64,000 nucleotides of DNA from Deroplatys truncata. Taxonomy: Eukaryota > Arthropoda > Insecta > Mantodea > Mantidae. The notes beneath the pieces are model-generated. The model ran no database searches and was not told the origin of the DNA. It worked only from the letters and a program-made list of their open reading frames with translations. Position 1 is the first letter of the stretch; each line of letters begins with the position of its first letter. The translations under genes and the position numbers were made by a program. The stretch is taken from positions 203,716,007-203,780,006 of the forward strand of contig CM060975.1 in assembly GCA_030765065.1 (NCBI GenBank), read 5' to 3'. Of the stretch, positions 28,657-57,212 are shown one piece after another.

Positions 28657-29433
28657 TTACTTTCTCTTCTACGTATAGTAAGTAGGGGAAGTATCGAATT
28701 CCACCCAAAAGTTTGATACCCACATTTCACGGAAAATATATGTTTTTAGGCCCCCTGGATCCAAAAAATGCACTTTTAGAAAAAGGTCCGTGTGTGTGTG
28801 TGTCTGCGTGGGTGTGTGAACAGCATTATTAAGGTTCAGTATCGTGACACGAAGACTACCTTTACATAGAGCAGTTTTTGAAAATTTTGATTTCATCAAA
28901 AAATCTAACGATGTTGATTAAAATACATATATTTAAGGCACTTTTATGGCAAATGAAATGCATATCTTGAATTTTATGGGAGTGTCCCCAAAAGTCGTCT
29001 TCATTCTGAATGAATTTTGCATAACTAGTAAACCGTAAGAGATAGACAAAGTTTTACTACACAAAAAATGTAGATCTCGTTAAAATACACAGTTTATCTA
29101 TATACTTTTTTGTGGAGTGAACCATTTCCGAGATATTCCTTGCTATTTGATTGAATTTTCCAATACTTATACTTTTTCTCAAGTGGGATTTTTTTTAATG
29201 TCCTGAACATGCAAATAAAACGGAATGCTCCACATAGCAACCCGCTCTTAAAGGATTTTACTATTGCTTAAAGCCTACCATATTTCCCTTGCACCTACAA
29301 GAAAATTAACAATACGATAGTTTCTGCAAATTTTTATAACGATTAACATGAAGTAACATGAGAATAAGCATTTGTAAAAATAGTTTGTACAAGAGTAGAG
29401 AAAGTCATGTGATTGTAACATCAGATTTTTAAC
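28657..29433 (+). repeat. Family A repeat (A1), complete
   Basis: Starts TTTTTACTTTCTCTTCTACG, ends GTAGAGAAAGTCATGTGATT and 'aacatcagatttttaactg'. A (GT)n tract (28788-28802) lies at the family's microsatellite position. Confidence 0.87.
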
Positions 29434-30397
29434 TGTAGTAATGCCACGAGTGGTTTCCAAATATCCATAGATTCTGGAGTCATGAAGTGACGAGAATTTA
29501 TCTATAGGATTTGGAAATCATGAATGGCATTTGGTGAAATTATTTTATGAATAAAACGATGTGAATTACCCAAAATCACGAGTATTATAATAAAATAGTA
29601 AAATATTTATATTATTTACAATATAAGTAGCATTGTTTTCGAAAACAAGTTAGAATCGTATGGTCACGTTTTGTTTGTTTGATAAGTGCAACTTGATCAT
29701 ATAGATATTATTTTCTGCGATTTGGCGTGCGTAACTTGTCGAAGGAATTCACTATTCATTTATCTATGATTGTAAGAATACTGCTAATAGAGTAAATATG
29801 AAGCAAATGAAACCTATATTATTAACATGACTTCTTTATGACTTCTTTACAGAAAAAGGTGGTAAAGTTAACTTGTTTCAATTCATTGGTTTATTATGAA
29901 CGTTATTTAAAAACACAATTACCTGGTTAATTTTGTTGTGTATTTCTTGTGCTCTTCTCCTTTGATTTCCTGACATTGATGCTATAAAAGGAATGTCACA
30001 GCTAAAATTCTACAAGAAATGTATTATAAGGAATATCATATAAAGTTCAATCCATTTGAAGACCAGGAGTTTCAAGAGGCGAGAGCCACAAGGAATGCGC
30101 AAAGAAAACTGCTCAAAAATTACTGGAAAAAAGAAAGATTAGTACAGTACCTTTAAAGTCCAAAGAACATGAACAAGTGATCAATTTATGTGATGAGAAC
30201 ACCTCTGAAGGGCCACAAATGAAGTTCTTCCTTATCGCTGCAATGCAATTGGCATTCTAATTAATAATCTCGCATACATGTTCATTTGAAGCGTTAGCAA
30301 ATCTCGTTTCCGCCATTTTATTTAAACGCAGTGGCATTAATTGTTGGTAGCTGAGTCACTGTAAAATGATACTCCAACGTCTTCAGAGTATTAAAAA
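29434..30397. other. Unassigned region
   Basis: A stretch near 30040-30160 translates on the plus strand to a charged segment (EARATRNAQRKLLKNYWKKE) of about 40 codons, which I do not recognise. It may be part of a decayed coding element; nothing else is visible. Confidence 0.3.
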
Positions 30398-31193
30398 AAA
30401 TCTGTGTTACACTCACATGACTTTCTCTACTCTTGTACAAACTATTTTTACAAACGCTTATTCTCCATATGCTTCATGTTCATCGAGATGTTAATCTTAT
30501 TGCTAATTTTCGTGTAGATGCAAGGGGAATTGGTAGGCTTTAAGCGAGTATTTTAAGAGCTGGTTGCTGTGTGGAGTATTCCATTCGTTTTGCATTACCA
30601 GGACAAAAAAAATGAATAACATATTTGAGAAAAAGTATAAGTATTGGAAAATTTAAGGGAATAACAAGCAATATCTCTAAAATGGTTCACCCAACAACAA
30701 AAAATGTATATGACATAAATTGTTTGTGTAGTAAAATTTTGTCTATCTCTTATGGTTTACCAGATATGCAAAAGTCGTTCATAATGAAGAATACGTTTGG
30801 AGACATTCCCAGAAAATTCGAGACATACATTTCATTTGTCATGAAAATATCTTAAACATATGATATTTTAATCAAAATCGTTAGAGCTATTTTTGAGAAA
30901 ATTAAAATTTTCGAAAAATGTTCCATCTAAGGGGTAATCTGGGGTGGGGAGATTTTCTTGAAAACCTTCGTGTTGCATCTCTGGAAGATAGTGAACCTAA
31001 ATACCAAGTTTGGTGTTTATAAGACTGTTCGTTTCTGAGTTATGCTGTTCACAGACACACACACACACACGGACATGTTTCCAATGCTTTATATGCATTC
31101 AGTGCACCTCAAAACATATTTCCTGTGAAATCTCGGTATCGAATTTTTGGGTGGAATGCAATACTTGCCCTACTTACTGTACGTAGTAGAGCC
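30398..31193 (-). repeat. Family A repeat (A1), near complete
   Basis: Starts TGTGTTACACTCACATGACT plus TTCTCTAC and ends 'ctgtacgtagtagagccca', so the last terminal bases are mutated. A CA tract is at 31055-31071. Confidence 0.86.
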
Positions 31194-34767: not shown

Positions 34768-35440
34768 GTTTTTTTACTTTCTCTACTACGTATAGTAAGT
34801 AGGGGAAGTATTGCTTTCCACCCAAAAATTCGATACCGAGAGTTCACCGGAAATACATGTTTTGAGACACCCTTTACATGGAAAATTTTTAGAAAATTTT
34901 AATTTTCTCAAAAATGACTAACGATTTTGATTAAAATATCATATGTTTAAGATATTTTCATGACAAATGAAATGTACATCTCGAATTTTCTGGGAATGTC
35001 TCCAAAAGTATTGTTCATTGTGAACGACGTTTGCATAATTGGTAAACCATAAGAGATAGACAAAATTTTACTACACAAAAATGTAGATCGCGTTAAAATA
35101 AACAATTTATGTCATATACATTTTTTGTTGAGTGAACCATTTTCTAGATATTGCTTGTTATTCCCTTAAATTTTCCAATACTTATACTTTTTCTCAAATT
35201 CGTTATTCATTTTTTTTGTCCTGGTAATACAAAGAGAATGTAATACTCCACATAGCAACCAGCTCTTAATATATTTGACTATAGCTTAAAGCCTTCCAAT
35301 TCCCCTTGCATCTAAAGAAAATTAGAAATAAGATTAACAACTCGATATCTCGATTAACATGAAGCATATGGAGAATAAGCGTTTATAAAAATAGTTTGTA
35401 CAGGAGTAGAGAAAGTCATGTGGGTGTAACACATCAGATT
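34768..35440 (+). repeat. Family A repeat (A1) with internal deletion
   Basis: Starts TTTTTTACTTTCTCTACTAC, but after 'tgttttgagacacc' jumps directly to 'ctttacatggaaaattttt'. The segment normally holding the microsatellite and the 'gatgcgacacgaag' block is deleted. Ends GTAGAGAAAGTCATGTGGG. Confidence 0.87.
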
Positions 35441-36224
35441 TTTTTTATGACCTGGATATGCAAACAGAATAGAATGCTCCACATAGCGACCAGTTCTAAA
35501 ATGATTTGACTATCGCTTAAATCCTATCATTTGTGGCGTATTATTAGGTATTAGTAGCTGTTGTCATGCCAGACACATTATTGCATCGTATTGGCGACAA
35601 CGGTAATTCTTTCGGCTTTGGTTTGAAGTTCCGTCTGGCATGGCGACTCGCCGCCTCTAGCTGGTGAGCCTAGCTAACGGTGGAGAGAGAGAGAGAGAGA
35701 GAGGAGGAGGAAATAGTTTAGCGTCCCTTCTTTGTGCGTGCGAGGCGTCAGTCTGGCTTGAAAGTCGAGTGTGTGAGTTTGTGCGTGAAAGAGTGTAAAT
35801 ATAGTTCGTGTGTGTGTCATCTCCCCACAATTATTTCATTATTTCCTTTCTGCGAGATGTAGGGACACTATCTATTTGTCAAATAAACCTCAGCTAATAT
35901 GAATAATGTGAAATCTAAGCAATTTGTTATAAATATCCCACGGCTGCACCTGAATGTGAATATCATTGTCCTAGTCCTCTCGCTGTTTCTGTAGCTACGC
36001 TTCCCTAAGTGCATGTTGGGGTGATCCAAATTTAGTATTTTTGCTGGAAACTTTAGGCCCTCACCCCAGCTTGTAACAATATTCCCCTTGCACCTATAAG
36101 AAAATTAGCAATAAGATGTTTTCTGTAAATGTTTATCTGGATTAATATGAAGTAGATGGAGAATAAGCCTTTGTAAAAATAGTTTGTAGAAGAGTAGAGA
36201 AAGTCATATAAGTGCAACACATCA
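35441..36224 (+). repeat. Family A 3' part split by an LTR-like insertion
   Basis: The left piece (35441-35531, 'gacctggatatgcaaacaga' to 'taaatcctatcat') and the right piece (36079-36224, 'atattccccttgcaccta' to 'gtagagaaagtcatataag') are contiguous in other copies ('cctaccatattccccttg'). Confidence 0.82.
35532..36078 (+). mobile_element. Probable solo LTR (TG...CA), inserted in family A
   Basis: The inserted 547 bp begins TGTGGCGTATTATTAGG and ends CAGCTTGTAACA. It contains a (GA)n tract, a GTGTGAG-rich stretch and one AATAAA (35881-35886), consistent with an LTR. The exact 3' end is inferred from the interrupted family A sequence; a perfect target duplication is not visible (left TCATT, right ATATT). 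Confidence 0.6.
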
Positions 36225-41395: not shown

Positions 41396-41401
41396 TGGCT
41401 T
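41396..41401. repeat. Target duplication, left (TGGCTT)
   Basis: TGGCTT directly precedes the AGTAGTATAAG terminus and recurs at 53773-53778 after the right terminus. Confidence 0.85.
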
Positions 41402-41411
41402 AGTAGTATAA

Positions 41412-41545
41412 GTCCCGGATGAGCCAATTGGATTAACGATAATCCTGCCGCTAGGGGCGCTAGTGTCGCTGCGAGCGACGGCGGTAAGTTTGAAAAGCGC
41501 CATGAGCGGAAGGATTATCGTTATTGCAATTGGTCCATCCGGGAC
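41412..41545. repeat. Left terminal hairpin of the palindromic element
   Basis: GTCCCGGATGAGCCAATTG and ACGATAATCCT at the outer side face the complement of GTCCCGGATGGACCAATTGC and ACGATAATCCT on the inner side. About 40 bp of stem encloses a GC-rich loop with GGGGCGCTAGTGTCGCTGCG. A foldable terminus inside a longer inverted repeat. Confidence 0.85.
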
Positions 41546-41562
41546 GAGCTAAAAGAATTGAG

Positions 41563-42578
41563 GATTAGGGAAAGATGAACGATTGGTAAGAATAAGAGAG
41601 ATTATGATTGGTGGAAAGAAAAAGATGTGGGAGTGGGGTATGTTGGAGGTGATGGGAAAGGTAAGTTTTCCTACCAACAAGATTTGCAAAAGCCTCTCCA
41701 GAACTCATCAGCAATTTTTGAACGTTGGATGGTAGTTTTCTTGAGTGGATAGAGAGATGGGGCGATATGAGATGCGGTGGCAAAAATGGGAACTAAACAA
41801 GATGGTTGAGACAAGAGGTCTAAGGACGAGGAAATTTCGAGGTTAGTGGTCAACATGGCGGTCGCAAGTGGGGGCAAGGAGACGCGGTGGTGAGAATGGG
41901 AACTAAAAGAAAATGGCGGTAGCAAGAGCTTAGAAGAGCAGATTTTGAGGTTAAAATAGTGGGAACTAAAATGGCGGAGGGTCGGCGACAAGGAGATGCG
42001 GTGGCCAACGTGAGAACTAAACAAGATGGCGGACGCAAGAGGAGGGTAAGGAGATTTGAGGTTAAGATTTTTAGGTTAAAACAGGACGTAAGCATGGGAA
42101 CGAAATCCAAGATGGGAAGGCAATGGTGTGGACGAGGAGATGTGAGGCGCGGTGGAGAAAATGCGAACTAAACAAGATGACGAAGACAAAAAAGTCTAAG
42201 GACGAGGAGATTTCGAGGTTAGTGGTCAACATGGCGGTCGCAAGAGGTGGTGGGCAAGGAGACTTCAGGTTAAGATTTTTACGTTAAAACAGGACGTAAG
42301 AAGGGGAACTAAATCCAAGATGGTGGAGGCAAGGGTGGGACGAGGAGATGTGAGGCGCGGTGGTAAAAATGGGAACTAAATAAGATGGCGGAGGCATGAA
42401 GTTCAGGTTAAAAATATGAGGTAAACGTGGAGAACTTAAACCAAGATGGCGGTGGCGTGGTGGTGAAAATGGGAACTAAACAAGATGGCGGAGGCAAGAA
42501 GTCGAGGGACGAAGAGGTTTGAGGTTAGGGTCAACATGCGAAAGATGTCGAACGCAACAGATGGTGACGAAGAGATAG
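41563..42578 (+). repeat. Left-arm-only duplicated segment
   Basis: Both borders carry GAATTGAGGATTAGGGAAAG (41560 and 42579 areas), whereas the right arm has this junction once (near 53597-53610). The interior duplicates the arm's own ATTGG and ATGGCGG arrays, so this is a local direct duplication of about 1.0 kb. Confidence 0.75.
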
Positions 42579-43372
42579 AATTGAGGATTAGGGAAAGATG
42601 AAGGAAAAACAGGAAGTGACGTGGAGGGTTTTGATTGGTAAAAATAAGACGAAATGGATTGGTTCGTTAATTCGGGTGGAAGATGAAGGAAGGAAGATAA
42701 AAGAGTATGGAGGACACGTGATGGAGAGGAGCGGAGCGGCGAGGTGTTGTCTGTGCGGAGGTCGGGACTGAAAGAGGGAAAAGATGGCGAACGAGGGATA
42801 AAAGTATAACAGAAAGTGACGTGTGAAGTTGTGATTGGTGGGGATAAGGAGTGATGTTATTGGTGGAAAGGAACAAATGAAAGTTGTTGATTGGTAAGAA
42901 TAAGAGAGATTATGATTGGTGGAAAGAAAAAGGTGTGGGAGTGGGGTATGTTGGAGGTGATGGGAAAGGTAAGTTTTCCTACCAACAAGATTTGCAAAAG
43001 CCTCTCCAGAACTCATCAGCAATTTTTGAACGTTGGAGATAGTTTTCTTGAGTGGATAAAGAGATGGGGCGATATGAGACGCGGTGGCGAAAATGGGAAC
43101 TAAGCAAGATGGCGGTGACAAGAGGTCTAAGGACGAGGAAATTTCGAGGTTAGTGGTCAACATGGCGGTCGCAAGAGGTGGGGGCAAGGAGACGCGGTGG
43201 TGAGAATGGGAACTAAAAGAAGATGACGGAAGCAAGAGCTTAGAAGAGCAGATTTTGAGGTTAAAATAGTGGGAACTAAAAATGGCGGAGGGTCGACGAC
43301 AAGGAGATGCGGTGGCCAACGTGAGAACTAAACAAGATGGCGGACGCAAGAGGAGGGTAAGGAGATTTGAGG
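41740..43372 (+). repeat. Degenerate array of GGGAACTAAACAAGATGGCGG units (left arm)
   Basis: Recurring modules: GGGAACTAAACAAGATGGCGG-like (one base variable), AAGAGGTCTAAGGACGAGGA, GATTTCGAGGTTAGTGGTCA, ACATGGCGGTCGCAAGAGG and GGTTAAAACAGGACGTAAG, shuffled at irregular spacing. AAGATGGCGG matches the core of the YY1/Pho binding consensus. Open frames such as 42588-43349 (minus) are low-complexity translations of the array and appear non-coding. The CCAAT array at about 42620-42960 interrupts it. Confidence 0.8.
42620..42960 (+). repeat. ATTGG (inverted CCAAT) array, left arm
   Basis: GATTGGTAAAAATAAG, GGATTGGTTCG, GTGATTGGTGGGGATAAG, TTATTGGTGGAAAGG, TTGATTGGTAAGAATAAG and ATGATTGGTGGAAAG occur in succession. 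The same set lies inverted in the right arm (53220-53580) and a shorter one near the centre (46430-46520, 46840-46930). Dense CCAAT boxes suggest promoter-like sequence, but no downstream gene is seen. Confidence 0.75.
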
Positions 43373-43561
43373 TTTCAGTACCAAAACACGAAAGGATATA
43401 TTCCTACGCCAAGCAGGCCCGAAAAATAATTATGCGTGTGGTACTTACCTCTTACTGGTGTTGATGCGTCACCAAAAGTGCAGCAGCTTCACGCGACGTG
43501 AAAAAATAAAAGCAAACTGTTTTTGAAAATGCTTAACCAGCTTTAAGATCAACCAACATCA

Positions 43562-43861
43562 CTACGCACTGATATACCTAGGTTTTTTAAAGCGGTACAG
43601 ACGCCCTTTGAACAGACGTAATTTAACTATACCAAAAACCTGGTACTGGACCATCGTAATGGTCGCTAGCGCACGTAGGAGCAGGGTTCTCATAGCCGGT
43701 CGAAAGCGGTCAAAAAAGTGTACGACGTAGGTGTTCAAAGTAGCTACTGTCGAGTCAACCATCGAGGTGTGAATGAACGAGATCTGTTCTTGCCAGCAAT
43801 CTGGTTCGGAGATGTGAGGAGCGGTGGCAAAAATGGGAACTAAACAAGATGGCGGAGACAA
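43562..43861 (-). CDS. Hypothetical 99-codon open frame in left arm (doubtful)
   Basis: Mirrored at 52327-52626. The later half (VDSTVATLNTYVVHFFDRFR, MRTLLLRALATITMVQYQVF, GIVKLRLFKGRLYRF) looks less repetitive than the rest of the arm and is basic and hydrophobic. The first 30 or so codons are translation of the ATGGCGG array, so the annotated start is unlikely. The two copies differ at several residues (M/T, L/V, A/T), which gives no sign of selection. No family recognised. Confidence 0.25.
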   Translation of the reverse strand: MSPPSCLVPIFATAPHISEPDCWQEQISFIHTSMVDSTVATLNTYVVHFFDRFRPAMRTLLLRALATITMVQYQVFGIVKLRLFKGRLYRFKKPRYISA

Positions 43862-43954
43862 GAAGTCAAGAACGAGGGGATTTGAGGTTAGTGGTCAATA
43901 TGGCAGACGCAAGAGTGGTAATCAGCAGTCGATGTGCGTCACGATATGCCCGCT

Positions 43955-44118
43955 GCGATTAAAGAGCTGCAAACTGCGCGATACCTTGAAAAATATTGCC
44001 CGGCGTGACGCATTGCGCGGCGCGCGCGTTTGCCGTAAACCGTTACAGTTGCCATACTTATATTATCCGTCTTTTTCTTTTTGTTTTTTTTTTCTTTATT
44101 TTTCTTTTTTTTTAAATA
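43955..44118 (-). repeat. GC-rich module, copy 1
   Basis: On the minus strand: AAGACGGATAATATAAGTAT, GGCAACTGTAACGGTTTACG, GCGCGCCGCGCAATGCGTCA, CGCCGGGCAATATT, then GCGCAGTTTGCAGCTCTTTA. The same order recurs at 46563, 46688 (inverted) and 52110. It contains a CpG-dense inverted repeat. Confidence 0.85.
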
Positions 44119-44330
44119 ACTAGTTTTTCGGGGTTTTCTCTGGTTGGTAGACGAATGCAAGCTCTTTCTGCTTTTTCATAGGTTTTCGCTGGTTGGTAGG
44201 CGTTTGCTGTAGTGGTTGACGATGCCCTTTCTAATTTTCGTGGTTTTTCAGGTTTTTCGTGGTTGTCCCTGTCCGGTACCCAAACGATGAAGTTTTCCCT
44301 TGTCGGCGCACGGATACTAGGCACATACTC
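44119..44330 (-). repeat. Degenerate tandem repeat translating as LPTRENPEK (left outer arm)
   Basis: On the plus strand it repeats the theme TTTTTCGGGGTTTTCTCTGG, TTGGTAGACGAATGCAAGC and TCTTTCTGCTTTTTCATAGG at about 50-60 bp spacing. The minus frame reads LPTRENPEK / PAKTYEKAERACIR / KPRKLERA. Related blocks are at 45530-45880, 47480-47800 and 51900-52100. Confidence 0.7.
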
Positions 44331-44449
44331 GCACACACACACACATTCACACACATACATTCGCTGACAAACTCTTTCTATTTTTCGGGCTTTTAAAAAA
44401 CTAAATAGGCACACACACACACTATAATAGCGTATAAAAAAATTTAACA

Positions 44450-44905
44450 AACAAAATCCACACAATGACAAAATTGAAAATGTATATATATTTTAACACA
44501 AAAGTGTGCACTGCAAAAGAAAATCAAAATTAAATAGGCACACACACATTTAATAGTAGCGATACCGCTTGATAAGGCACCAATTGCACGTTGTTTGTTA
44601 GGGCAATGCATGTTGAAAGTTGGCACACTGGGAAGTTGGTTCGCACAAAATCCGCATAATGACAAAATTGAAAATGTATAGATATTTTAGCACAAACGTG
44701 TGCAGTGCAAAAGAAAAGAAAAATTAAATAGGCACACACACATTTAATAGTAGCGATACCGCTTGATAAGGCACAAATTGCACGTTGTTTGTTAGGGCAA
44801 TGCATGTTGAAAGTTGGCACACTGGGAAGTTGGTTCGCACAGAATCCACACAATGACAAAATAGAAAATGTATATATATATATATATAACACAAAAGTGT
44901 GCAGT
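44450..44905 (-). repeat. 194-bp tandem repeat, about 2.3 units (left outer arm)
   Basis: CAAAATCCACACAATGACAA recurs at about 44452, 44646 and 44841. Each unit ends with 'gcatgttgaaagttggcaca' and contains 'gtagcgataccgcttgataa' plus a short (CA)n. The minus-strand open frames MSLCGFC... arise from it. The mirror is at 51369-51770. Confidence 0.85.
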
Positions 44906-45056
44906 TTATAAGTTTTAGTAACTGACACTCTACATAACAGTTACGATTCGTGTTCACAAATGTGCAAAATGTATGCAGTTTTGACGTAAACTGCATCCTA
45001 GATTATACCAGCTTTCTTAAGCTGACCTAACTCACTATAGGCTCTGGAAATTGATA

Positions 45057-45380
45057 TATTATGATATAAGAGATATTTTTGAGAAAATTAAAAATAACGA
45101 AAACTTTTGCATGTAAAGAGTAGTATAAATTGGAGAGATTTTCTTCAAAACCTTCGTCTCGCACCCCTGAAAGGTCCTGAACTTAAATGCCAAGTTTCGT
45201 ATTTAAACGAGTTTTCGTTTCCCAGTTGTACTGTTCACACACACACACGCGGATCTTTGTCTAAATATGTTTGGTTTTTTGGGTCAGGGAACCTCGAAAC
45301 GGTGAAACCTCGACATAGAATTTTTGGGTGGGGTACAATACTTCCTTTACTTACTGTAAGTACATAGTAGAGAAAGCAAA
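45057..45380 (-). repeat. Family A fragment inside left inner arm
   Basis: Family A blocks 'ttgagaaaattaaaaataac', 'aaaccttcgtctcgcaccc' and CACACACACACGCGG, ending 'acatagtagagaaagcaaa'. Mirrored at 47958-48290, so family A inserted before the inner palindrome formed. Confidence 0.85.
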
Positions 45381-45529
45381 AATAGAATTGCAAACTCTCA
45401 AACATTAAATTGAGTTTTATTTGTTTGTACACACAAAAGTTAGCAAGTCTATTAAACCAAAGCAGAACTGTAAGTGTTCATGATGCAACTGCGTTAATGG
45501 CGTTAGAAACGGCTGATGTGAAACAAACA

Positions 45530-45610
45530 CAAAACCTATGAAAAAGCAGAAAGAGCTTGCAGTCGTCTACCAACCAGAGAAAACCCCGAAAAACTAGTTA
45601 GAGATTTGTG

Positions 45611-45652
<42 letters not shown>

Positions 45653-45880
45653 CGCACTGAGCATGCGTCCGTAAACAGGGGTAAACCACGAAATAGGATA
45701 AAGGACTTAAGTTTAATTGTCTACCCACCAGGGAAAAGCACGAAAAAAAGAAAGAGCTTTGGCAACGGTTGCAGCAATCGCGTACCAACCGGAAAAAGCC
45801 ATGTAAAAGTAGAAAGAGTTTGCATTTGTCTACCAACCAGGAAAAACCCCGAAAAACAGTAAGAACTTCATCGTTTATTG
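45530..45880 (+). repeat. LPTR-type tandem repeat and (GT)n, left inner arm
   Basis: The plus frame gives VNRGKPRNRIKDLSL, VYPPGKSTKKRKSF, RVPTGKSHVKVERVCIC and LPTRKNPEK as consecutive variants of one basic unit. A (GT)n run at 45615-45649 precedes it. Basic and repetitive; coding status doubtful. Confidence 0.65.
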
Positions 45881-45984
45881 GTTGGCTGCAAAAAGAATGT
45901 ACAAGCAACTGCACCACAAAGTGCTTTACCGATGCTAAAAACAAAAAATAAGTTTTTTTTGTGAACGGCACATGGCTTGCCTTC

Positions 45985-46335
45985 ACCGGTCCGAAGTGGT
46001 CCTCAATGTCTGCAAGGAAGCGTCCCACGGACGGTTGCCAATCCCTCGGGAGGACGGTGACGACGATGTCGGTGACGAAGTAGTACACTGGATCTCCAAT
46101 TCACTTCAGGTGACAAAATAACACTAGGTACTTGTGGGCCGTGGTGTAAGCCGCAATCACGGCATTGGTAGCGTGAATCACCTTGGTGCTCTCCTCGGAG
46201 TTTCCTCAACACCACGTACATTACCTGGTTCGTCACGGGTACGCAGGTCTGCACTACCACTTCCTCGGCGTTGAGAAGGCCCAGGAGGCGATCGTACCGG
46301 TACACCAGCTAGCACGTGGACATGTTATCGCGCTG
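45985..46335 (-). pseudogene. GC-rich decayed coding segment, left inner arm
   Basis: The minus strand shows YRYDRLLGLLNAEEVVVQTC and PVTNQVMYVVL, then a one-base frameshift, VIHATNAVIAAYTTAHKYL, an in-frame TGA, and VYYFVTDIVVTVLPRDWQPS with FLADIEDHFGPVKA. Third codon positions are strongly G/C in an AT-rich window, the mark of a once-translated gene from a different sequence background. The mirror copy at 47020-47390 has the same frameshift site. Family not recognised. Confidence 0.6.
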
Positions 46336-46429
46336 TGGTGTTGCGTGTGCGAGGTATGGAAACTCAAGGACGCAAAACATGCACGACCGAGGGTTAAAAA
46401 GTAGAACAAGTAGTGACGTGGAACGTTGT

Positions 46430-46545
46430 GATTGGTGAAAATAAGACGATCTCTGATAGGTGGACAAATTGAAATAACGTGATGTGATAGGCGAAAATAA
46501 AATCAAAGGTGATTGGATGAAAAATGACGAGAAGGAATTAGTGGT
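46430..46545 (+). repeat. ATTGG/CCAAT array next to the centre
   Basis: GTGATTGGTGAAAATAAGAC, CTGATAGGTGG, GTGATAGGCGAAAATAAA and GGTGATTGGATGAAAAATG: the same theme as the outer-arm arrays, mirrored at 46830-46930. Confidence 0.75.
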
Positions 46546-46562
46546 GAATTTGTCAACTAAGA

Positions 46563-46669
46563 TGGCGAAGATTTTTTTAAAAAAAAAAAGACGGATAATA
46601 TAAGTATGGCAACTGTAACGGTCTACGGCAAACGCGCGCCGCGCAATACGTCACGCCGGGCAATAAAAC
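46563..46669 (+). repeat. GC-rich module, copy 2 (left of centre)
   Basis: AAGACGGATAATATAAGTAT to CGTCACGCCGGGCAATAAA: the same module as 43955-44118, here pointing into the centre of symmetry. Confidence 0.88.
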
Positions 46670-46687
46670 AAAAACCATATTCAGCAA
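46670..46687. other. Centre of the inner palindrome
   Basis: The asymmetric spacer between the two CACGCCGG/CCGGCGTG ends is only about 35 bp (roughly 46658-46692) and contains AAAACAAAAACCATATTCAG. Arms on both sides are complementary for about 1.7 kb. Confidence 0.8.
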
Positions 46688-46792
46688 GATGGCCGGCGTG
46701 ACGCATTGCGCGGCGCGCGTTTGCCGTAAACCGTTACAGTTGCCATACTTATATTATCCGTCTTTTTTTTTTAAAAAAAAATCTTCGCCATC
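46688..46792 (-). repeat. GC-rich module, copy 3 (right of centre)
   Basis: Complementary to copy 2: GGCCGGCGTGACGCATTGCG to TTATATTATCCGTCTTTTTT. Confidence 0.88.
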
Positions 46793-47019
46793 TTAGTTCA
46801 CAAATTCACCGCTAATTCCTTCTCGTCATTTTTCATCCAATCACCTTTGATTTTATTTTCGCCTATCACATTACGTTATTTCAATTTGTGCACCTATCAG
46901 AGATCGTGTTATTTTCACCAATCACAACGTTGTTCTACTTTTCAACCCTCGGTCGTGCATGTTTTGTGTCCTTGAGTTTCCATACCTCGCACACGCAACA
47001 CCACAGCGCGATAACATGT

Positions 47020-47390
47020 CCACGTGCTAGCCGGTGTACCGGTACGATCGCCTCCTGGGCCTGCTCAACGCCGAGGAAGTGGTAGTGCAGACCTGCGTAC
47101 CCGTGACGAACCAGGTCATGTACGTGGTGTTGAGGTAACTCCGAGGAGAGCCCCAAGGTGATCCACGCTACCAATGCCGTGATTGCGGCTTACACCACGG
47201 CCCACAAGTACCTAGTGTTATTTTGTCACCTGAAGTGAATTGGAGATCCAGTGTGCTACTTCGTCACCGACATCGTCGTCACCGTCCTCCCGAGGGATTG
47301 GCAACCGTCCGTGGGACGCCTCCTTGCAGACATTGAGGACCACTTCGGACCGGTGAAGGCAAGCCATGTGCCGTTCACAGAAAAAACAAC
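47020..47390 (+). pseudogene. GC-rich decayed coding segment, right inner arm
   Basis: Mirror of 45985-46335. In frame: YRYDRLLGLLNAEEVVVQTC, PVTNQVMYVVL, then TAA at the position where the left copy has AAA (both carry one extra base relative to the frame that continues), VIHATNAVIAAYTTAHKYL, TGA, then FVTDIVVTVLPRDWQPSVG. A TAG lies three codons after MST at the upstream side in both copies. Confidence 0.6.
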
Positions 47391-47479
47391 TTATTTTTTG
47401 TTTTTAGCATCGGTAAAGCACTTTGTGGTGCAGTTGCTTGTACATTCGTTTTGCAGCCAAGCAATAAACGATGAAGTTC

Positions 47480-47800
47480 TTACTGTTTTCGGGGTTTTTC
47501 CTGGTTGGTAGACAAATGCAAACTCTTTCTACTTTTACATGGCTTTTTCCGGTTGGTACGCGATTGCTGCAACCGTTGCCAAAGCTCTTTCTTTTTTTCG
47601 TGCTTTTCCCTGGTGGGTAGACAATTAAACTTAAGTCCTTTATCCTATTTCGTGGTTTACCCCTGTTTACGGACGCATGCTCAGTGCGCTCTCTCTCACA
47701 CACACACACACACACAAACACACGCCTACAAATCTCTAACTAGTTTTTCGGGGTTTTCTCTGGTTGGTAGACGACTGCAAGCTCTTTCTGCTTTTTCATA
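47480..47800 (-). repeat. LPTR-type tandem repeat and (CA)n, right inner arm
   Basis: Mirror of 45530-45880 with a shorter CA run (47697-47718). Units begin 'tttcggggtttttcctggtt' and 'tacatggctttttccggttg'. Confidence 0.7.
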
Positions 47801-47957
47801 GGTTTTGTGTTTGTTTCACATCAGCCGTTTCTAACGCCATTAACGCAGTTGCATCATGAACACTTACAGTTTTGCCTTGGTTTAATAGACTTGCTAACTT
47901 TTGTGTGTACAAGCAAATAAAACTCAATTTAATGTTTGAGAGTTTGCAATTCTATTT

Positions 47958-48290
47958 TTGCTTTCTCTACTATGTACTTACAGTAAGTAAAGGAAGTATT
48001 GTACCCCACCCAAAAATTCTATGTCGAGGTTTCACAGTTTCGAGGTTCCCTGACCCAAAAAACCAAACATTTTTAGACAAAGATCCGCGTGTGTGTGTGT
48101 GTGTGTGTGAACAGTACAACTGGGAAACGAAAATTCGTTTAAATACGAAACTTGGCATTTAAGTTCAGGACCTTTCAGGGCTGCTAGACGAAGGTTTTGA
48201 AGAAAATCTCTCCAATTCAAACTACTCTTTACATGCAAAAGTTTTCGTTATTTTTAATTTTCTCAAAACTGTCTCTTATATCATAATATA
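47958..48290 (+). repeat. Family A fragment inside right inner arm
   Basis: Mirror of 45057-45380, with a longer GT tract (48088-48109). Starts GCTTTCTCTACTATGTAC. Confidence 0.85.
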
Positions 48291-48741
48291 TCAATTTCCA
48301 GAGCCTATAGTGAGTTAGGTCAGCTTAAGAGAGCTGGTATAATCTAGGATGCAGTTTACGTCAAAACTGCATACATTGTGCACATTTGTGAACACGAATC
48401 GTAACTCTTATGTAGAGTGTCAGTTACTAAAACTTATAAACTAATGTTATTTACATTTAAAATATTTATATTTAGTATTTACAAAACTGCATTAAGTTTT
48501 GGAGTAAAATTAGTAGTACCTTTATTTTTTTTGAATGAATGAAATCCTCCTCTGTATTCAAGGTGTGAGTGACAAGGTATCTTTCTAATGCTGACTTGAT
48601 TTTATTTTTATTATTTTTCAGTTCCTTACGGTTTATGATGGAAATGAATTAAACAATACATGTCATTTGCAATGTCCTTGCAAGGCCGATCTAGAAGTAG
48701 TCGATACATAAAATGTCACAATTACTAATAAACAATCTGAT

Positions 48742-49682
48742 GTGTAACACTCACATGACTATCTACTCTTGTACAAACTATTTTTAGAAACTCTTATTCT
48801 CCATCTATTTCATATTAATCAAGATAAACATTCGCAGAAACGATCTTTTGACATGCAAAGAGAATTACATCTTACACATAGCGACCAGTTCTAAAAATAT
48901 ATGACTGTCGCTTAAGGCGTACTATGTTCCCCTTGTTTTGTATTTACAAGGGCAATATAGAAATACAGTAGCCTTTAAGCATATACATATCTCTTAATAA
49001 CTGGTTGCTATGTGCATCACCATTCTCTTTGCCTCAGATTAATACTCTTTGCATATACAAGACAAAAACTGAATAACGCATTCCCATTTGAGAAAATAAG
49101 TATTGAAACATTTAAGGGAATAACAAGCAATATCTCGAAAATGGTTCACTCAACAAAAAAAATGTATATGACATATATTGTGTATTTTAACGCGATCTAC
49201 ATTTTTGTGTAGTAAAATTTTGTATATCTCTTATGGTTTACCACTTATGCAAAAGTCGTTCACAATAAGAATACTTTTGGAGACATTCCCAGAAAATTCG
49301 AGATATACATTTCATTTGTCTTGAAAATATCTTGAACATATAATATTTTAATCAAAATCGTTAGAACCATTTTTGAGAAAATTAAAATTTTCGAAAAATG
49401 TTCCATGTAAAGGGTTGTCTGGGGTGGGGGGATTTTCTTGGAAACCTTTGTGTCGCATCTCTGGAAGATACTGAACCTAAATACCAAGTTTGGTGCTTAT
49501 CCGACTGTTCGTTTCTGAGTTATGCTGTTCACAGACACACACACGGACATGTTTCCAAAAATGCATTTTTTTTATCCAGGGGGTCTCAAAACATGTATTT
49601 CCGGTGAAATCTCGGTATCGAATTTTTGGGTGGAATACAATACTTCCCCTACTTACTATACGTAGTAGAGAAAGTAAAAAAG
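48742..49682 (-). repeat. Family A repeat (A1) in the right-arm insertion
   Basis: Starts 'atctgatgtgtaacactcac', ends CGTAGTAGAGAAAGTAAAAA. Its internal 'caatatagaaatacagtagcc' variant is shared with the 9.6-kb copy, so these two are close relatives. Confidence 0.85.
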
Positions 49683-50077
49683 AAAACTAGGAAAGTAAAA
49701 TGCCTGGCCCGTTATAGAATGTATCAGAAATAAAGCATTCCCCCAGAGTCCTTATTGTTTGCATTACCAAACGTTAAAGGAAATGAAACAAGGATTTAAA
49801 GCAGTTCTATGTAAAAGTAACAATCCATACAGCCCCAAAGCACTGAATATATTGACATTCAGATATAGAAACAAAGTTATATTACAATTGAAGCGTACAG
49901 GATTTGAATTTGTCCTTCTCACACATTTGCCATTTGAAATGGAATTTGTTTCCGGTGCACTTCCGGTCACACCATCCGTCCATCCACCGCTGCACTTTTC
50001 CCTACCATCGACCATAAAACCGCATTTAAAAGATTTTCTCGCTGATGAGCATCCGTTCGCACGGCCATTTTTTTTAA

Positions 50078-50235
50078 AGTTATCGTGCAGTTTGCACCTC
50101 TTTAAACGCGGCTGCTTTATCAGCACCGTTCTCACGGTCATTTTCCAAGTTATCGCGCAGTTTGCAGCTCTTTAACCGCGGCTGCCATATTGTAACACAC
50201 ATCGACTGCTTCATCAGCACACGGCCATTCACGTA
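50078..50235 (+). repeat. Short tandem of the GCAGTTTGCAGCTCTTTAA motif
   Basis: AGTTATCGTGCAGTTTGCAC and AGTTATCGCGCAGTTTGCAG occur about 70 bp apart, each followed by CTCTTTAA and CGCGGCTGC. The motif returns at 43960 (inverted), 51270-51368 (inverted) and 52210. Confidence 0.75.
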
Positions 50236-50286
50236 CTGCTGCTTCCGCTGCACATGAGTATCGTTCTTTTTACTGTTTTCTCCGAT

Positions 50287-51022
50287 ACTAACATGAGCAG
50301 AACTATAACGCTTGCTACATGTTGCTAATAGTGGTTGAGCTTCACTCCCACTAGCGCTTTTCGCGGAAGGTTAAGTATTTCCGCACGGTTATGTGATTTA
50401 TTAAGTGCGTGTGGAGTTAAAAACAGTACCATGCCTCAACTTCAACATCAGTGTCAAATATTTAAAACTATCAGTGTCGTGTGTAGTGATTTTGTGTTGT
50501 GCTGTGCATAAAATCTGAGAAAAATCACGCACAAAATTTCGACGCGAGCAACCAGTGGATGTGTGCCCTTGTTGCACGCATTGCCATAAACTGTCAAATA
50601 TGGCCGCCAACCGCACCATCACCAACGACATCGTAGGAGAAAAGACTAACGCGAGCAGAACTATAACGCTTGCTACATGTTGCTAATAGTGCTTGAGCTT
50701 GCACTCCCACAAGCGCTTTTCGCTGAAAGTTAAGTATTTCCGCACGGCTATGTGATTTATTAAGTGCGCGTGGAGTTAAAAACAGTGCCCCGCCACAACT
50801 TCAACATCAGTGTCAAATATTTAAAACTATCAGTGGCGCGTGTAGTGATTTTGTGATGTGCGGTGCATAAAATCTGAGAAAAATCACGCACAAACTTTCG
50901 ACGCGAACAACAAGTGGCTGTGTGCCCTTGTTGCACGCATTGCAATAAACTGTCGAATATGGCCGCCAACCGCACCCTGTCGAATATGGCCGCCAAGCGC
51001 ACCATCAGCAACAGCATGGTAG
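50287..51022 (+). repeat. 358-bp direct tandem duplication, two units
   Basis: ACTATAACGCTTGCTACATG begins each unit's shared part (offset 358). Each unit contains ATCAGTG initiator-like sites and ends with an ATATGGCCGCCAACCGCACC block. In unit 2 that block is itself duplicated (50958 and 50987). The ATG has an excellent start context and is followed by a short frame (MAANRT...) and, in unit 2, a donor-like ATGGTAGGT. Confidence 0.85.
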
Positions 51023-51368
51023 GTGGAAAAAGCCTGTCCTTCTCCTTGTATTTTCATAGTTGTCATAAATACAAATAGAAACTTCCATTTTCGCAATCCA
51101 TTATATAAAATTAATGCAAAAAACTTATGCCAAAAACGTATTGCCATGAAAAACAAATAAACAATACCTCTAAACGAAATGCGTTGAAAAGGAATATGAA
51201 CATGAAATAAGCCGAAAGGTAAGACAGCTGTGACGGTGTTTGGCGATCATACGGGGAAGCACGTGCTGTACGCGTCGTGCAAACTGCACGATAGCATGAA
51301 AACTGACCGTGTGAACGGATGCTGATGAAGTAGTTGGTTGACCACAGCGATTAAAGAGCTGCAAAACT

Positions 51369-51770
51369 GCGCGAACCAGCTTCCCGGTGTGCCAACTTTC
51401 AACATGCATTGCCCTAACAAACAACGTGCAATTTGTGCCTTATCAAGCGGTATCGCTACTATTAAATGTGTGTGTGTGTGCCTATTTAATCTTTATTTTC
51501 TTTTGCACTGCACACTTTTGTGTTAAAATATATATACATTTTCAATTTTGTCATTGTGTGGATTTTGTGCGAACCAACTTCCCAGTGTGCCAACTTTCAA
51601 CATGCATTGCCCTAACAAACAAAGTGCAATTTGTGCCTTATCAAGCGGAATCGCTACTATTAAATGTGTGTGTGCCTATTTAATTTTGATTTTCTTTTGC
51701 AGTGCACACTTTTGTGTTAAAATATATATATACATTTTCAGTTTTGTCATTGTGTGGATTTTGTTTGTTA
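51369..51770 (+). repeat. 194-bp tandem repeat, right outer arm
   Basis: Mirror of 44450-44905: 'tgccaactttcaacatgcat' recurs at about 51387 and 51588, with (GT)n runs in between. Confidence 0.85.
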
Positions 51771-51899
51771 AATGTTTTTATACGCTACTATTATAGTGTG
51801 TGTGTGTGTGTGCCTATTTAATTTTTTAAAAGCCCGAAAAATAGAAAGAATTTGTGAGCGAATGTATGTGTGTGAATGTGTGTGTGCGAGTATGTGCCT

Positions 51900-52105
51900 A
51901 GTATCCGTGCCCCGACAAGGGAAAACTTCATCATTTGCCTACCGGACAGGGACAACCACTAAAAACCTGAAAAACCACGAAAATTAGAAAGGGCTTCGTC
52001 AACCACTACAGCAAACGCCTACCAACCAGGGAAAACTTATGAAAAAGCAGAAAGAGCTTGCATTCGTCTACCAACCAGAGAAAACCTCGAAAAACTAGTT
52101 ATTTT
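51900..52105 (+). repeat. LPTR-type tandem repeat, right outer arm
   Basis: Mirror of 44119-44330 with 'accaaccagggaaaactta' and 'ctaccaaccagagaaaacct'. Confidence 0.7.
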
Positions 52106-52245
52106 TTTTAAAAAAAAGACGGATAATATAAGTATGGCAACTGTAACGGTTTACGGTAAACGCGCGCGCCGCGCAATGCGTCACGCCGGGCAATATTTTT
52201 CACGTCATCGCGCAGTTTGCAGCTCTTTCATCGCAGCGGCATATC
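52106..52245 (+). repeat. GC-rich module, copy 4
   Basis: AAGACGGATAATATAAGTAT to CGTCACGCCGGGCAATATTT and GCGCAGTTTGCAGCTCTTTC: mirror of copy 1. Confidence 0.87.
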
Positions 52246-52326
52246 GTGACGCACATCGACTGCTGATTACCACTCTTCCGTCTGCCATATTGACCACTAA
52301 CCTCAAATCCCCTCGTTCTTCACTTC

Positions 52327-52626
52327 TTGTCTCCGCCATCTTGTTTAGTTCCCATTTTTGCCACCGCTCCTCACATCTCCGAACCAGATTGCCGGCAAGA
52401 ACAGATCTCGTTCATTCACACCTCGACGGTTGACTCGACAGTAGCTACTGTGAACACCTACGTCGTACACTTTTTTGACCGCTTTCGACCGGCTATGAGA
52501 ACCCTGCTCCTACGTACGCTAGCGACCATTACGATGGTCCAGTACCAGGTTTTTGGTATAGTTAAATTACGTCTGTTCAAAGGGCGTCTGTACCGCTTTA
52601 AAAAACCTAGGTATATCAGTGCGTAG
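52327..52626 (+). CDS. Hypothetical 99-codon open frame in right arm (doubtful)
   Basis: Mirror of 43562-43861 and subject to the same doubts. A consensus 5' splice site, GAGGTAAGT, lies about 110 bp downstream (near 52737-52746), also present in mirror. A spliced transcript from this arm is therefore possible, but unsupported otherwise. Confidence 0.25.
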   Translation: MSPPSCLVPIFATAPHISEPDCRQEQISFIHTSTVDSTVATVNTYVVHFFDRFRPAMRTLLLRTLATITMVQYQVFGIVKLRLFKGRLYRFKKPRYISA

Positions 52627-52779
52627 TGATGTTGGTTGATCTTAAAGCTGGTTAAGCATTTTCAAAAACAGTTTGGTTTTATTTTTTCGCGTCGCGTGAA
52701 GCTGCTGCGCTTTTGGTGACGCATCAACACCAGTAAGAGGTAAGTACCACACGCATAATTATTTTTCGGGCCTGCTTGG

Positions 52780-53600
52780 CGTAGGAATATATCCTTTCGT
52801 GTTTTGGTACTGAAACCTCAAATCTCCTTACCCTCCTCTTGCGTCCGCCATCTTGTTTAGTTCTCACGTTGGCCACCGCATCTCCTTGTCGTCGACCCTC
52901 CGCCATTTTTAGTTCCCACTATTTTAACCTCAAAATCTGCTCTTCTAAGCTCTTGCTTCCGTCATCTTCTTTTAGTTCCCATTCTCACCACCGCGTCTCC
53001 TTGCCCCCACCTCTTGCGACCGCCATGTTGACCACTAACCTCGAAATTTCCTCGTCCTTAGACCTCTTGTCACCGCCATCTTGCTTAGTTCCCATTTTCG
53101 CCACCGCGTCTCATATCGCCCCATCTCTTTATCCACTCAAGAAAACTATCTCCAACGTTCAAAAATTGCTGATGAGTTCTGGAGAGGCTTTTGCAAATCT
53201 TGTTGGTAGGAAAACTTACCTTTCCCATCACCTCCAACATACCCCACTCCCACACCTTTTTCTTTCCACCAATCATAATCTCTCTTATTCTTACCAATCA
53301 ACAACTTTCATTTGTTCCTTTCCACCAATAACATCACTCCTTATCCCCACCAATCACAACTTCACACGTCACTTTCTGTTATACTTTTATCCCTCGTTCG
53401 CCATCTTTTCCCTCTTTCAGTCCCGACCTCCGCACAGACAACACCTCGCCGCTCCGCTCCTCTCCATCACGTGTCCTCCATACTCTTTTATCTTCCTTCC
53501 TTCATCTTCCACCCGAATTAACGAACCAATCCATTTCGTCTTATTTTTACCAATCAAAACCCTCCACGTCACTTCCTGTTTTTCGTTCATCTTTCCCTAA
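52780..53600 (-). repeat. ATGGCGG array and CCAAT array, right arm
   Basis: Mirror of 42588-43372. The translation of 52839-53600 is identical to that of the left arm's 42588-43349, and opposite-strand short frames are identical too, so the two arms are almost or fully identical over at least 760 bp. Confidence 0.85.
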
Positions 53601-53619
53601 TCCTCAATTCTTTTATCTC

Positions 53620-53762
53620 GTCCCGGATGAACCAATTGCAATAACGATAATCTTTCCGCTCATGGCGCTTTTCAAACATACCGCCGTCGCTCGCGGCGAC
53701 ACTAGCGACACTAGCGCCCCTAGCGGCAGGATTATCGTTAATCCAATTGGCTCATGCGGGAC
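53620..53762. repeat. Right terminal hairpin of the palindromic element
   Basis: GTCCCGGATGAACCAATTGC inside faces the complement of GTCCCGCATGAGCCAATTGG outside. The loop contains a 9-bp duplication (GCGACACTAGCGACACTAGC) absent from the left hairpin. Confidence 0.85.
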
Positions 53763-53772
53763 TTATACTACT

Positions 53773-53778
53773 TGGCTT
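53773..53778. repeat. Target duplication, right (TGGCTT)
   Basis: Identical to 41396-41401 and directly follows CTTATACTACT. Confidence 0.85.
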
Positions 53779-53796
53779 TACAATGCGGTGTATTTT

Positions 53797-54615
53797 TTCT
53801 TTCTCTATTACTTATAGTAAGTAGGGAAGTATTGTATTCCACCCAATAATTCGATACTGAGATTTCACCGGAAATACATGTTTTGAGACCCCCTGAATCC
53901 AAAATAAGCATTTTTGGATACATGTTCGTGTGTGTGTGTGTGTCTGTGAACAGCATAATTCAGAAACGAAAAGTCGGAGAAACACCAAACTTGGTATTTA
54001 GGTTCAGTATCTTCCAGAGATGCGACACGAAGGTTTTCAAGAAAATCCCCCCACCCCAGACTACCCTTTACATGGAACATTTTTCGAAAATTTTAATTTT
54101 CTCAAAAATAGCTCTAACGATTTTGATTTAAATATGATATGTTTAAGATATTTTTATGATAAATTAAATGCATATCTCGAATTTTCTGGGAATGTCTCCA
54201 AAAGTATTCTTCATTGTGAACGACTTTTGCATAACTGGTAAACCATAAGAGATAGCCAAAATTTTACTACACAAAAAATGTAGATCGCGTTAAAATGCAC
54301 AATTTATGCCATATACATTTTTTTTTTGTTGAGTGAACCATTTTCGAGATATTGCTTGTTATTCCCTTAAATTTTCCAATATTTGTACTTTTTCTCAAAT
54401 TTGTTATTCATTTTTTGTGCTGGTAATGCTTAGATAATGGAATGCTCCACATAGCAACCAGTTCTTAAAATATTTGACTATCGCCTAAAGCCTACCAATT
54501 CCCCTTGCAACTCGATATCTCGATTAACATGAAGCATATGGAGAATAAGCGTTTGTAAAAATAGTTTGTACAAGAGTAGAGAAAGTCATGTGAGTGTAAC
54601 ACATCAGATTTTTAC
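53797..54615 (+). repeat. Family A repeat (A1), complete
   Basis: Starts TTCTTTCTCTATTACTTATA, ends GTAGAGAAAGTCATGTGAG and 'aacacatcagatttttac'. A (GT)n tract is at 53928-53944. Confidence 0.88.
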
Positions 54616-55130: not shown

Positions 55131-55439
55131 GGGATGATATTGGCTTACTGAAATAAAACCTACTGGTAAGCTACTCTTTTGCATGCAAGTTGTTTAGAAT
55201 GTAATATGGCTTAATACATGGGCGAAGGTGACACTGTCGTCTGTCACATACTCTTGTGCACGTGGGCGCGGCGTAATACAAAAGGTGTGTTACATAAAGC
55301 CGATCCATTATAGCTGTAAAACTTTCTGAATTATACTCGGGTCTTGTAAAAGAAATTGCAGATACTACGAATCAGTCAAATTATTTCCCCCTACCGGACA
55401 AAATATGGGTACCTTCAATAAGTATACTCAATAAAATAA
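55131..55439. other. Unassigned spacer
   Basis: Nothing recognised. Confidence 0.35.
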
Positions 55440-55668
55440 TCTGATGTATCGAACTCACATGACTTTCTCTACTCTTGTACAAACTATTTATACAGACGAT
55501 TATTCTCCATCTATTTCATGTTAATCAAGATATCGAGATGTTAATCTTGTTACTAAATTTCTTGTAGGTGCAAGGGGAATTGGTAGGCTTTAAGCGATAG
55601 TCAAATATTTTAAGAGCTAGTTGCTATGTGGAGTATTCTTCTCTTTGCATTACCAGGACAAGAAAAAA
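55440..55668 (-). repeat. Family A end fragment
   Basis: 'atctgatgtatcgaactcac' to 'gcattaccaggacaag'; the next copy repeats this sequence immediately, so the pair forms a partial tandem. Confidence 0.85.
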
Positions 55669-55669
55669 A

Positions 55670-56560
55670 TCTGATGTGTTACACTCACATAACTTTCTCT
55701 ACTCTTGTACAACCTAATTTTACAAACGCCTATTCTCCATATGCTTCATATTAATCGAGATATGGAGATGTCAATCTTATTGGTAATTTTCTTGTAGATG
55801 CAAGGGAAACATGGTAGCTTTTAAGCGATAGTCAAATATTTTAACGCGGTTGCTATGTGGCGCATTCCATTCTCTTTGCATGTCCAGGCCATAAAAAAAT
55901 GAATAACGCATTTGAGAAAAAGTATAAGTATTGGAAAATTTAAGGAAATAACAAGCAATATCTCGAAAACGGTTCACTCAACAAAAGAAATGTATAGGAC
56001 ATAAGTTGTGTATTTTAACGCGATCTACATTTTTTGTGTAGTAAAATTTTGTCTATCTCTTATGGTTTACCAGTTAGGCAAAAGTCGTTCACAATGAAGA
56101 ATACTTTTGGAGACATTCCCAGAAAATTCAGATATACATTTCATTTCTCATGACATTGCCCTAAACATATGATATTTTCATCAAAATCGTTAGAGCCATT
56201 TTTGAGAAAATTAAAATTTTCGAAAAATCTTCCATGTAAAGGGTAGACTGGGGTGGGGGGATTTTCTTGAAAACCTTCGTGTCGCATCTCTGGAAGATAC
56301 TGAACCTAAATACCAAGTTTGGTGTTTATCCGACTGTTCGTTTTGGAGTTATGCTGTTCACAGACACACAGACACACACACACACACACACAGACACACA
56401 CACACACACACAGTAACACACACGGACATGTTTCCAAAAATGATTTTTTTGGATTCAGGAGGTCTCAAAACATGTATTTCCGGTGAAATCTCGGTATCGA
56501 ATTTTTGGGTGGAATACAATACTTCCCCTACTTACTATACGTAGTAGAGAAAGTAAAAAT
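55670..56560 (-). repeat. Family A repeat (A1), complete
   Basis: 'atctgatgtgttacactcac' to CGTAGTAGAGAAAGTAAAAA. A long interrupted (CA)n tract at 56362-56424 occupies the family position. Confidence 0.9.
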
Positions 56561-57212
56561 GAATAACGAATTCCCATTTGAGAAAAAGTATAAGTATTGG
56601 AAAATTTAACGGAAAAACAAGCAATATCTCGAAAATGGTTCACTCAACAAAAAAAAAGTTTATGACATAAATTGTGTATTTTAACGCGATCTACATTTTT
56701 TGTGTAGTAAACCTTTGTCTATCTCTTATGGTTTACCAGTTATGCAAATGTCGTTCAAAATGAAGAATGTTTTTGGAGACATTCCCAGAAAATTCAAGAT
56801 ATACGTTTCATTTGTCATGAAAATATCTTAAACATATGATATTTGAATCAAAATCGTTAGAGCCATTTTTGGGAAAATTAAAATTTTCGAAAAGTGTTCC
56901 ATGTAATGGGTAATCTGGGGTGGGGGGATTTTCTTGAAAACCTTCGTTTCGCATCTCTGGAAGATACTGAACATAAATACCTAGTTTGGTGTTTATCCGA
57001 CTGTTCGTTTCTGAGTTATGCTGTTCACAGGCACACAGAAGACACACAGACACACAGAAGACACACAGACACACACACACACGGACATGTTTCCAAAATG
57101 CTTTTCTTTGATTCAGAGGGCCTCAAAACATATATTTCGGGTGAAATCTCGGTATCGAATTTTTGGGTGGAATACAACGCTTCCTCTACTTACTATACGT
57201 AGTAGAGAACTT
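56561..57212 (-). repeat. Family A repeat (A1), truncated, in tandem
   Basis: Continues directly from the previous copy with 'gaataacgaattcccatttg' and ends TACGTAGTAGAGAAC. The CA tract (57030-57083) has the 20-bp-scale unit ACACAGAAGACACACAGAC twice. The first third is missing. Confidence 0.88.

Follow-up and report, generated by a model that had tools for sequence, protein, structure and literature searches.

A palindromic element with two right ends, almost certainly a Maverick/Polinton derivative, in the genome of the mantis Deroplatys truncata

The window analysed here, a stretch of 64,000 nucleotides of the mantis Deroplatys truncata (assembly GCA_030765065.1, contig CM060975.1, forward-strand positions 203,716,007 to 203,780,006), lies in contig C1 (338.6 Mb) of a genome of 4.29 Gb in 818 contigs, and it contains a large palindromic element. 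The element proper occupies positions 41402-53772 (12,371 bp) and is almost certainly a non-autonomous palindromic derivative of an abundant Maverick/Polinton family. Both of its ends copy the right end of the standard element, and the two copies stand head to head across an interior that holds a decayed polymerase and a host repeat. Taken as a whole, the evidence is best explained, with a high degree of probability, by a Maverick derivative whose right end was doubled and which then spread with the help of standard Mavericks. We class it as a non-autonomous derivative, and not as a full Maverick, because it has no PolB and integrase genes of its own; no working gene was found in the window element, where PolB is present as broken relics only.

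The element is flanked by the hexanucleotide TGGCTT on the left (41396-41401, + strand) and on the right (53773-53778, + strand). This perfect target site duplication (TSD) had been reported in a first-pass annotation of the window, along with two sets of mirrored arms with coordinate sums of 96188 and 93345, and sequence comparison bears out both. The element ends read AGTAGT...ACTACT, the terminal sequences being AGTAGTATAAGTCCC at the left and GGGACTTATACTACT at the right, and the terminal repeat (41402-41582 and 53583-53772; 181-190 bp, sums 95174-95165) has an identity of 92.6%. A published account of vertebrate Mavericks gives them 6-bp TSDs, a commonest end motif of 5'-(AGT)2//(ACT)2-3' that is expected to serve jump-back in protein-primed replication, and, in intact elements, terminal inverted repeats (TIRs) of 46-1,447 bp (PMC8097293). 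The window element thus resembles Mavericks in its TSD length, its (AGT)2//(ACT)2 ends and its terminal inverted repeats, but differs from intact vertebrate Mavericks in having mirrored arms of several kb, and from Mavericks in general in being right-ended at both termini and in that no working gene was found in it.

Other kinds of mobile element were also considered. Foldback transposons of the P/Galileo or Mutator kind (FB, Galileo, Tetris) also have long, internally repetitive mirrored arms, often without a transposase. They belong to other superfamilies with other TSD lengths, 8-10 bp for Tetris against 6 bp here, and the TSD of Galileo falls within the 7-10 bp range of P/Mutator foldbacks. 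With the Maverick end motif and a full-length relative that encodes PolB and an rve integrase also against it, this affiliation can be given practically no credence. No more credible is an IS3EU/GingerRoot element, for which the 6-bp TSD length would be suitable; such elements end in TA..TA, or occasionally TG..CA (PMC10045372), whereas the window element ends in AG..CT and has a PolB-bearing relative. Teratorn differs in having a piggyBac-like transposase, 18-bp TIRs and herpesvirus genes.

The affiliation is further supported by the relatives of the element in the same genome. With up to three mismatches allowed, a pattern taken from the start of the element (29 bases) has 4,839 genomic matches (2,428 + 2,411), and the reversed-pattern control has none. 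Ten complete copies were bounded, all with perfect 6-bp TSDs that all differ from one another; AGTAGT stands at 18 of the 20 termini. These ten are the best matches to a query that included right-arm DNA, and hence an uneven sample that favours right ends; four are standard elements, 17.4-17.7 kb long and mirrored over 144-160 bp at their ends, and the other six, like the window element, have the standard right-end sequence inverted at both ends. One of the four standard copies was scanned gene by gene (frames L018/L019), and by Pfam it encodes an rve integrase (1.5e-15) with a Chromo domain (4.3e-7) and DNA_pol_B_2 (4e-41); the other three are 92-98% alike in aligned blocks left of standard position 13.5 kb. 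A 435-aa frame of the standard copy has 67 homologues, and its predicted model (pLDDT 87.7) matches, in Foldseek, the capsid proteins of iridovirus, Sputnik, PBCV-1 and mavirus and an adenovirus capsid chain, so that on structural prediction this frame of the full-length relative is a double-jelly-roll capsid protein. The first-pass annotation had suggested a mobile, non-autonomous giant foldback derivative, and had proposed a search for full-length copies with different TSDs and for genes in longer relatives; that suggestion holds, and both the copies and the integrase, PolB and capsid frames were found. Its contrast between the element and Mavericks, on the other hand, is not supported, in view of the ends, the TSD length, the relative with integrase and PolB, and the element's own PolB relic.

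The architecture of the palindrome was clarified by comparison with a copy, C16:595M (C16:595079815-595097666), which is a near-perfect palindrome of 17,852 bp with arms 97-98% alike and a spacer of 50 bp. In the window, positions 42577-44076 and 52113-53611 mirror each other at 98.9% (sum 96188-96189), and 44903-48442 mirrors itself at 95.4% (sum 93345). The window is colinear with C16:595M over 41402-51764 and 52113-53611, the larger blocks being 94-97% identical, and because of this colinearity the apparent pair of nested palindromes is a single palindrome with a 3.55-kb hole in its left arm (copy bases 3805-7358). Both sets of mirrored arms are real, as had been claimed, but they are not nested, and two independently nested elements were ruled out on the same ground. 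At the edges of the gap C16:595M has AGT on both sides, the window reads across one AGT (the junction, 44903-44905), and the longer version is still present in the window's own right arm. An inner palindrome inserted separately was rejected as well, since the 6-mers beside it differ and the AGT is the microhomology of the deletion. Relative to C16:595M the window has also lost about 0.29 kb near its left end, and its right arm is shorter near its end.

From left to right, the left arm (41402-44905, - strand) is an inverted standard right end, with blocks from standard position 17575 down to 15201 and the missing 0.29 kb at 41581. It is followed by the inner left arm, the interior of the palindromic lineage (44903-46662, +), the centre (46663-46689) and the inner right arm (46690-48442, +). 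The stretch at 48443-51366 (+) is unpaired owing to the left-arm deletion, and the right arm (49949-53772, +) is a standard right-end block with blocks within standard positions 13525-17575. In their main blocks, the arms of the window element are 93-99% identical to the standard right end. Measured from the innermost arm pair (46572-46662 and 46690-46780), the centre spacer is 27 nt and not about 35 bp as first thought. Large palindromes are a classic assembly artefact, and fold-back chimeric reads could in principle have made this one; such an origin is most improbable, given that the arms differ by about 1-5%, that the left arm carries its own deletion, that the TSDs match, and that the ends were read in 15 further copies with right ends at both termini (R/R), 14 of them with perfect TSDs.

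The interior contains two mirrored copies of a C-terminal relic of PolB, on the left at 45993-46308 (-, tblastn E 2.8e-24) and on the right at 47034-47346 (+, E 1.1e-25), although the first-pass annotation had recognised no Maverick gene. A protein search with the relic frame gave no match, so that the relic was recognised only by way of the full-length relative. A further scrap of 22 aa from the N-terminal region of PolB (51227-51292, +; tblastn E 2.9e-6, and blastn) lies within the right-end block, in a stretch that is also present in the right-end block of the standard copy. Among palindromic copies the interior with the PolB relic is 95.6-98.6% identical, with 73-75% DNA identity to the standard PolB; counting substitutions only, the arms share 96-98.5% identity with the right ends of two standard copies. 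On these identities, the palindromic copies have in common an old interior joined to arms that resemble standard right ends. Searches of the 143 element frames of at least 45 aa gave a single weak match each in Pfam (E 0.0074) and PHROG (E 0.0021), both of which we take as chance. Exact-pattern scans of viral contigs with arm, terminal and module sequences gave no matches, and a 16-base end pattern gave two, a length at which chance matches are possible.

The stretch at 48443-49684 (+) is a host interspersed repeat that has no match in the standard copy and 39 BLAST matches elsewhere in the window. As it sits in both arms of C16:595M and of another palindromic copy, C16:159M, a host repeat was taken up and mirrored. 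It is an abundant interspersed repeat with a GT-rich tract, whose window copies, at 2192-3220, 9640-10556, 20614-21405, 28653-29430, 30392-31191, 34770-35530, 53793-54400 and 55417-57209, are 73-96% identical to the element stretch; one of them starts about 15 bp past the right TSD.

The window, C16:595M, C16:159M and C16:617M share one centre spacer, which recurs with small changes in C8:2.4M; it is present in the window and in four of the six fetched palindromic copies, in a comparison that covered all of them but C8:153M. In a wider census the shared spacer (up to 4 edits) was found at the midpoint stretches of four of nine R/R elements, and in one more (L090) the midpoint aligns with the centre region of the window but lacks the spacer. 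The remaining four midpoints decide nothing, as the midpoint of an element and the centre of its palindrome may differ.

This census drew on the first 100 exact termini in the list, which form 31 inward pairs at less than 40 kb (median 18.8 kb); two pairs above 31 kb were dropped, leaving 29 with both ends fetched. Perfect 6-bp TSDs flank 27 of the 29, and the remaining two have one and two mismatched letters. When classed by the sequence inside the terminus, 20 elements have one left and one right end (L/R; 14.0-23.6 kb), 9 are R/R (9.4-16.4 kb) and none is L/L, in a sample that, being based on exact termini, favours young copies. Signature patterns, which recover 35 of 38 right and 20 of 20 left census ends, find 4,129 right-type and 1,045 left-type ends in the genome, and no match in the reversed-pattern controls. 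A rough estimate from these counts gives about 1,045 L/R and 1,540 R/R elements, on the assumption that all ends belong to complete elements, which decay and truncation make inexact. Among the first 100 exact places listed for each type, inward pairs closer than 25 kb comprise 23 R/R and 1 L/L. Eleven of the 20 L/R elements measure 18.7-19.2 kb against 17.4-17.7 kb for the first four fetched, and right ends read either GAGTTAAAAG or GAGCTAAAAG; such differences in size and end sequence suggest that the family holds at least two subfamilies. In the aligned window and census ends, left ends are mostly GGCTCATCC and right ends mostly GGTTCATCC, and hence the left and right ends of a standard element are not homogenised.

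Arms of the same palindrome tend to be more alike than arms drawn from different copies. For a tree of a 1.5-kb arm segment, both arms were readable in five copies, and in four of these they group as sisters (0.976 for the window, 1.0 for C16:595M, 0.952 for C16:159M and 0.922 for C8:153M). In a pairing test on 15 R/R copies (30 of 55 right-type ends, the window pair being excluded owing to its left-end loss), partner identity averages 0.978 against 0.953 under random pairing, and none of 2,000 random pairings reaches 0.978; the partner ranks first for 12 of the 30 ends, with a median rank of 2.5 and a worst of 43 out of 54. The window, C16:595M and C16:159M share a centre and yet have sister arms in that tree, and hence their arms were re-made alike after the copies had diverged. 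Such re-matching would be explained by copying through a single-stranded hairpin or, equally, by gene conversion.

Gene conversion is also a part of the most serious competing explanation. It accepts the identity of the element but places its origin in the chromosome, where opposed copies, or an inverted duplication at a break, would have been spread by the Maverick integrase, with the arms kept alike by conversion. Inverted repeats in chromosomes can indeed convert each other, a host repeat is present in both interior arms, and arm identity varies along the copies (97.8-99.4%). Such an origin is nonetheless unlikely in our judgement, for right-end symmetry dominates (the 23 pairs against 1), which random events would not favour, barring later selection, and the element stops precisely at a Maverick terminus on each side and has TSDs.

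Several observations weigh against the account preferred here, that of right-end palindromes made and spread by the Maverick machinery. The similarity of the arms could come from gene conversion, and in an inner segment the window's left arm is 97.8% identical to its own right arm but 98.5-98.6% to C16:595M. One copy, C8:2.2M, has arms that are not sisters, one of its ends ranking its partner 43rd of 54. It also has a different palindrome centre, which may reflect either a second origin or a deletion that removed the old centre; as these would look alike, we dropped it as proof of a second origin. The ten bounded copies were an uneven sample, as noted, and many of the R/R copies may have descended from one founding event. 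Pfam recognised none of the frames of the standard copy that were assigned by eye to a protease, an ATPase and a minor capsid protein. Finally, a single L/L element was found (L098-L100, G000:C2 ~178,639,598-178,657,933, ~18.3 kb). GGCCGG flanks it on either side, left-end sequence covers at least 0.56 kb at each terminus, and its midpoint stretch matches standard DNA 9870-8666 unbroken. Because this element exists, the excess of right ends is a bias and not a rule, and a supposed absence of L/L elements was dropped.

Among known systems, a close parallel is offered by the symmetric defective genomes and virus-host recombinants of adenoviruses, which are palindromic, have one genome end at both termini, can include host DNA and depend on a helper. 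The window element likewise has the same genome end (R-type) at both termini; the Maverick palindromes differ in being integrated, dispersed copies with TSDs. We read the R/R palindromes as the Maverick counterparts of such defective viral genomes. A strand of a linear Maverick in protein-primed replication would fold back, or switch template, near the right end and extend on itself, and the product would be symmetric, carrying the right terminus at both ends. PolB, integrase and perhaps capsid would then come in trans from standard Mavericks; PolB would copy the palindromes, the Maverick integrase would insert them with a 6-bp TSD, and amplification would follow. The window copy afterwards lost 3.55 kb of its left arm.

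The steps of this scheme are not equally secure. Mobilisation in trans by Maverick proteins is very likely, and the chances for and against a snap-back origin during protein-primed replication seem to us about equal. A little below this we place a cis signal, for example for packaging or replication, that may lie in the 4-kb right end, since right-end symmetry far exceeds left-end symmetry. A parallel is adenovirus, in which the packaging signal lies at one end of the genome. The last 4 kb of the scanned standard copy, a repeat-rich stretch, has no frame of at least 190 aa. More tentatively still, the palindromes might form a self-sustaining lineage of Maverick "defective-interfering" genomes, in which snap-back R/R palindromes outnumber their helpers (about 1,540 against 1,045), one arm is re-copied by way of a hairpin intermediate and the right end holds the cis signal.

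If such a lineage exists, Mavericks would live much as viruses do and be subject to natural parasites. Cleanly integrated R/R palindromes are most easily explained by a linear replicating intermediate, and replication of Mavericks as free linear DNA or in particles hence becomes testable in one animal. According to the account of the vertebrate elements, Maverick particles have not been observed (PMC8097293). The palindromes also illustrate one route from a virus-like element to a giant foldback, and point to the right end as the site of a cis signal. A literature search on Polintons, covering titles and opening abstract lines and subscription papers only thinly, found no description of palindromic Mavericks.

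Each end of the element also contains a hairpin of about 140 nt. The left terminus with its subterminal hairpin occupies 41402-41545 (+), and is R-type by the bases that follow; the right, also R-type, occupies 53620-53772 (-). The z-scores are -11.4 and -5.5, and none of 200 shuffles is as stable at either end. The stem sequence is largely kept across 28 aligned ends, and in those ends (both of the window and 26 of the 58 of the census) the loop varies by GGC triplets and 9-base units around a nearly constant stem. The first-pass annotation had offered a linear replicon with hairpin ends as one interpretation, and the terminal hairpins do exist. A parvovirus-like, rolling-hairpin replicon would account for stable, conserved hairpins at both ends; in the left-end fold the outermost 10 bases lie outside the hairpin, the relative encodes PolB and integrase, and the AGTAGT repeats fit jump-back protein priming (PMC8097293). 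We regard that kind of replicon as improbable, the (AGT)2 ends and PolB-bearing relatives pointing instead to protein-primed replication. In the window, Rfam at its gathering thresholds and a tRNA search found nothing.

Elsewhere in the window, segments at 25166-25573 (-) and 4880-5654 (-) are, by eye, what we take to be fragments of a mariner-like transposase and of Penelope-like reverse transcriptases. Pfam gave no significant match for either; these tentative assignments would suit an arthropod host. Within the element, the outer arms (41764-44000, mirrored at 52270-53120) contain repeated units with AAGATGGCGG, which occurs 7 times on the + strand of the left arm and not at all in the 51.6 kb outside the element, and which resembles a YY1/Pho binding motif. 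AACTAAA, counted 13 times against 19 outside, and ATTGGT, 9 times against 34, stand out less. The purine fraction is 0.665 in the left arm and 0.359 in its mirror arm.

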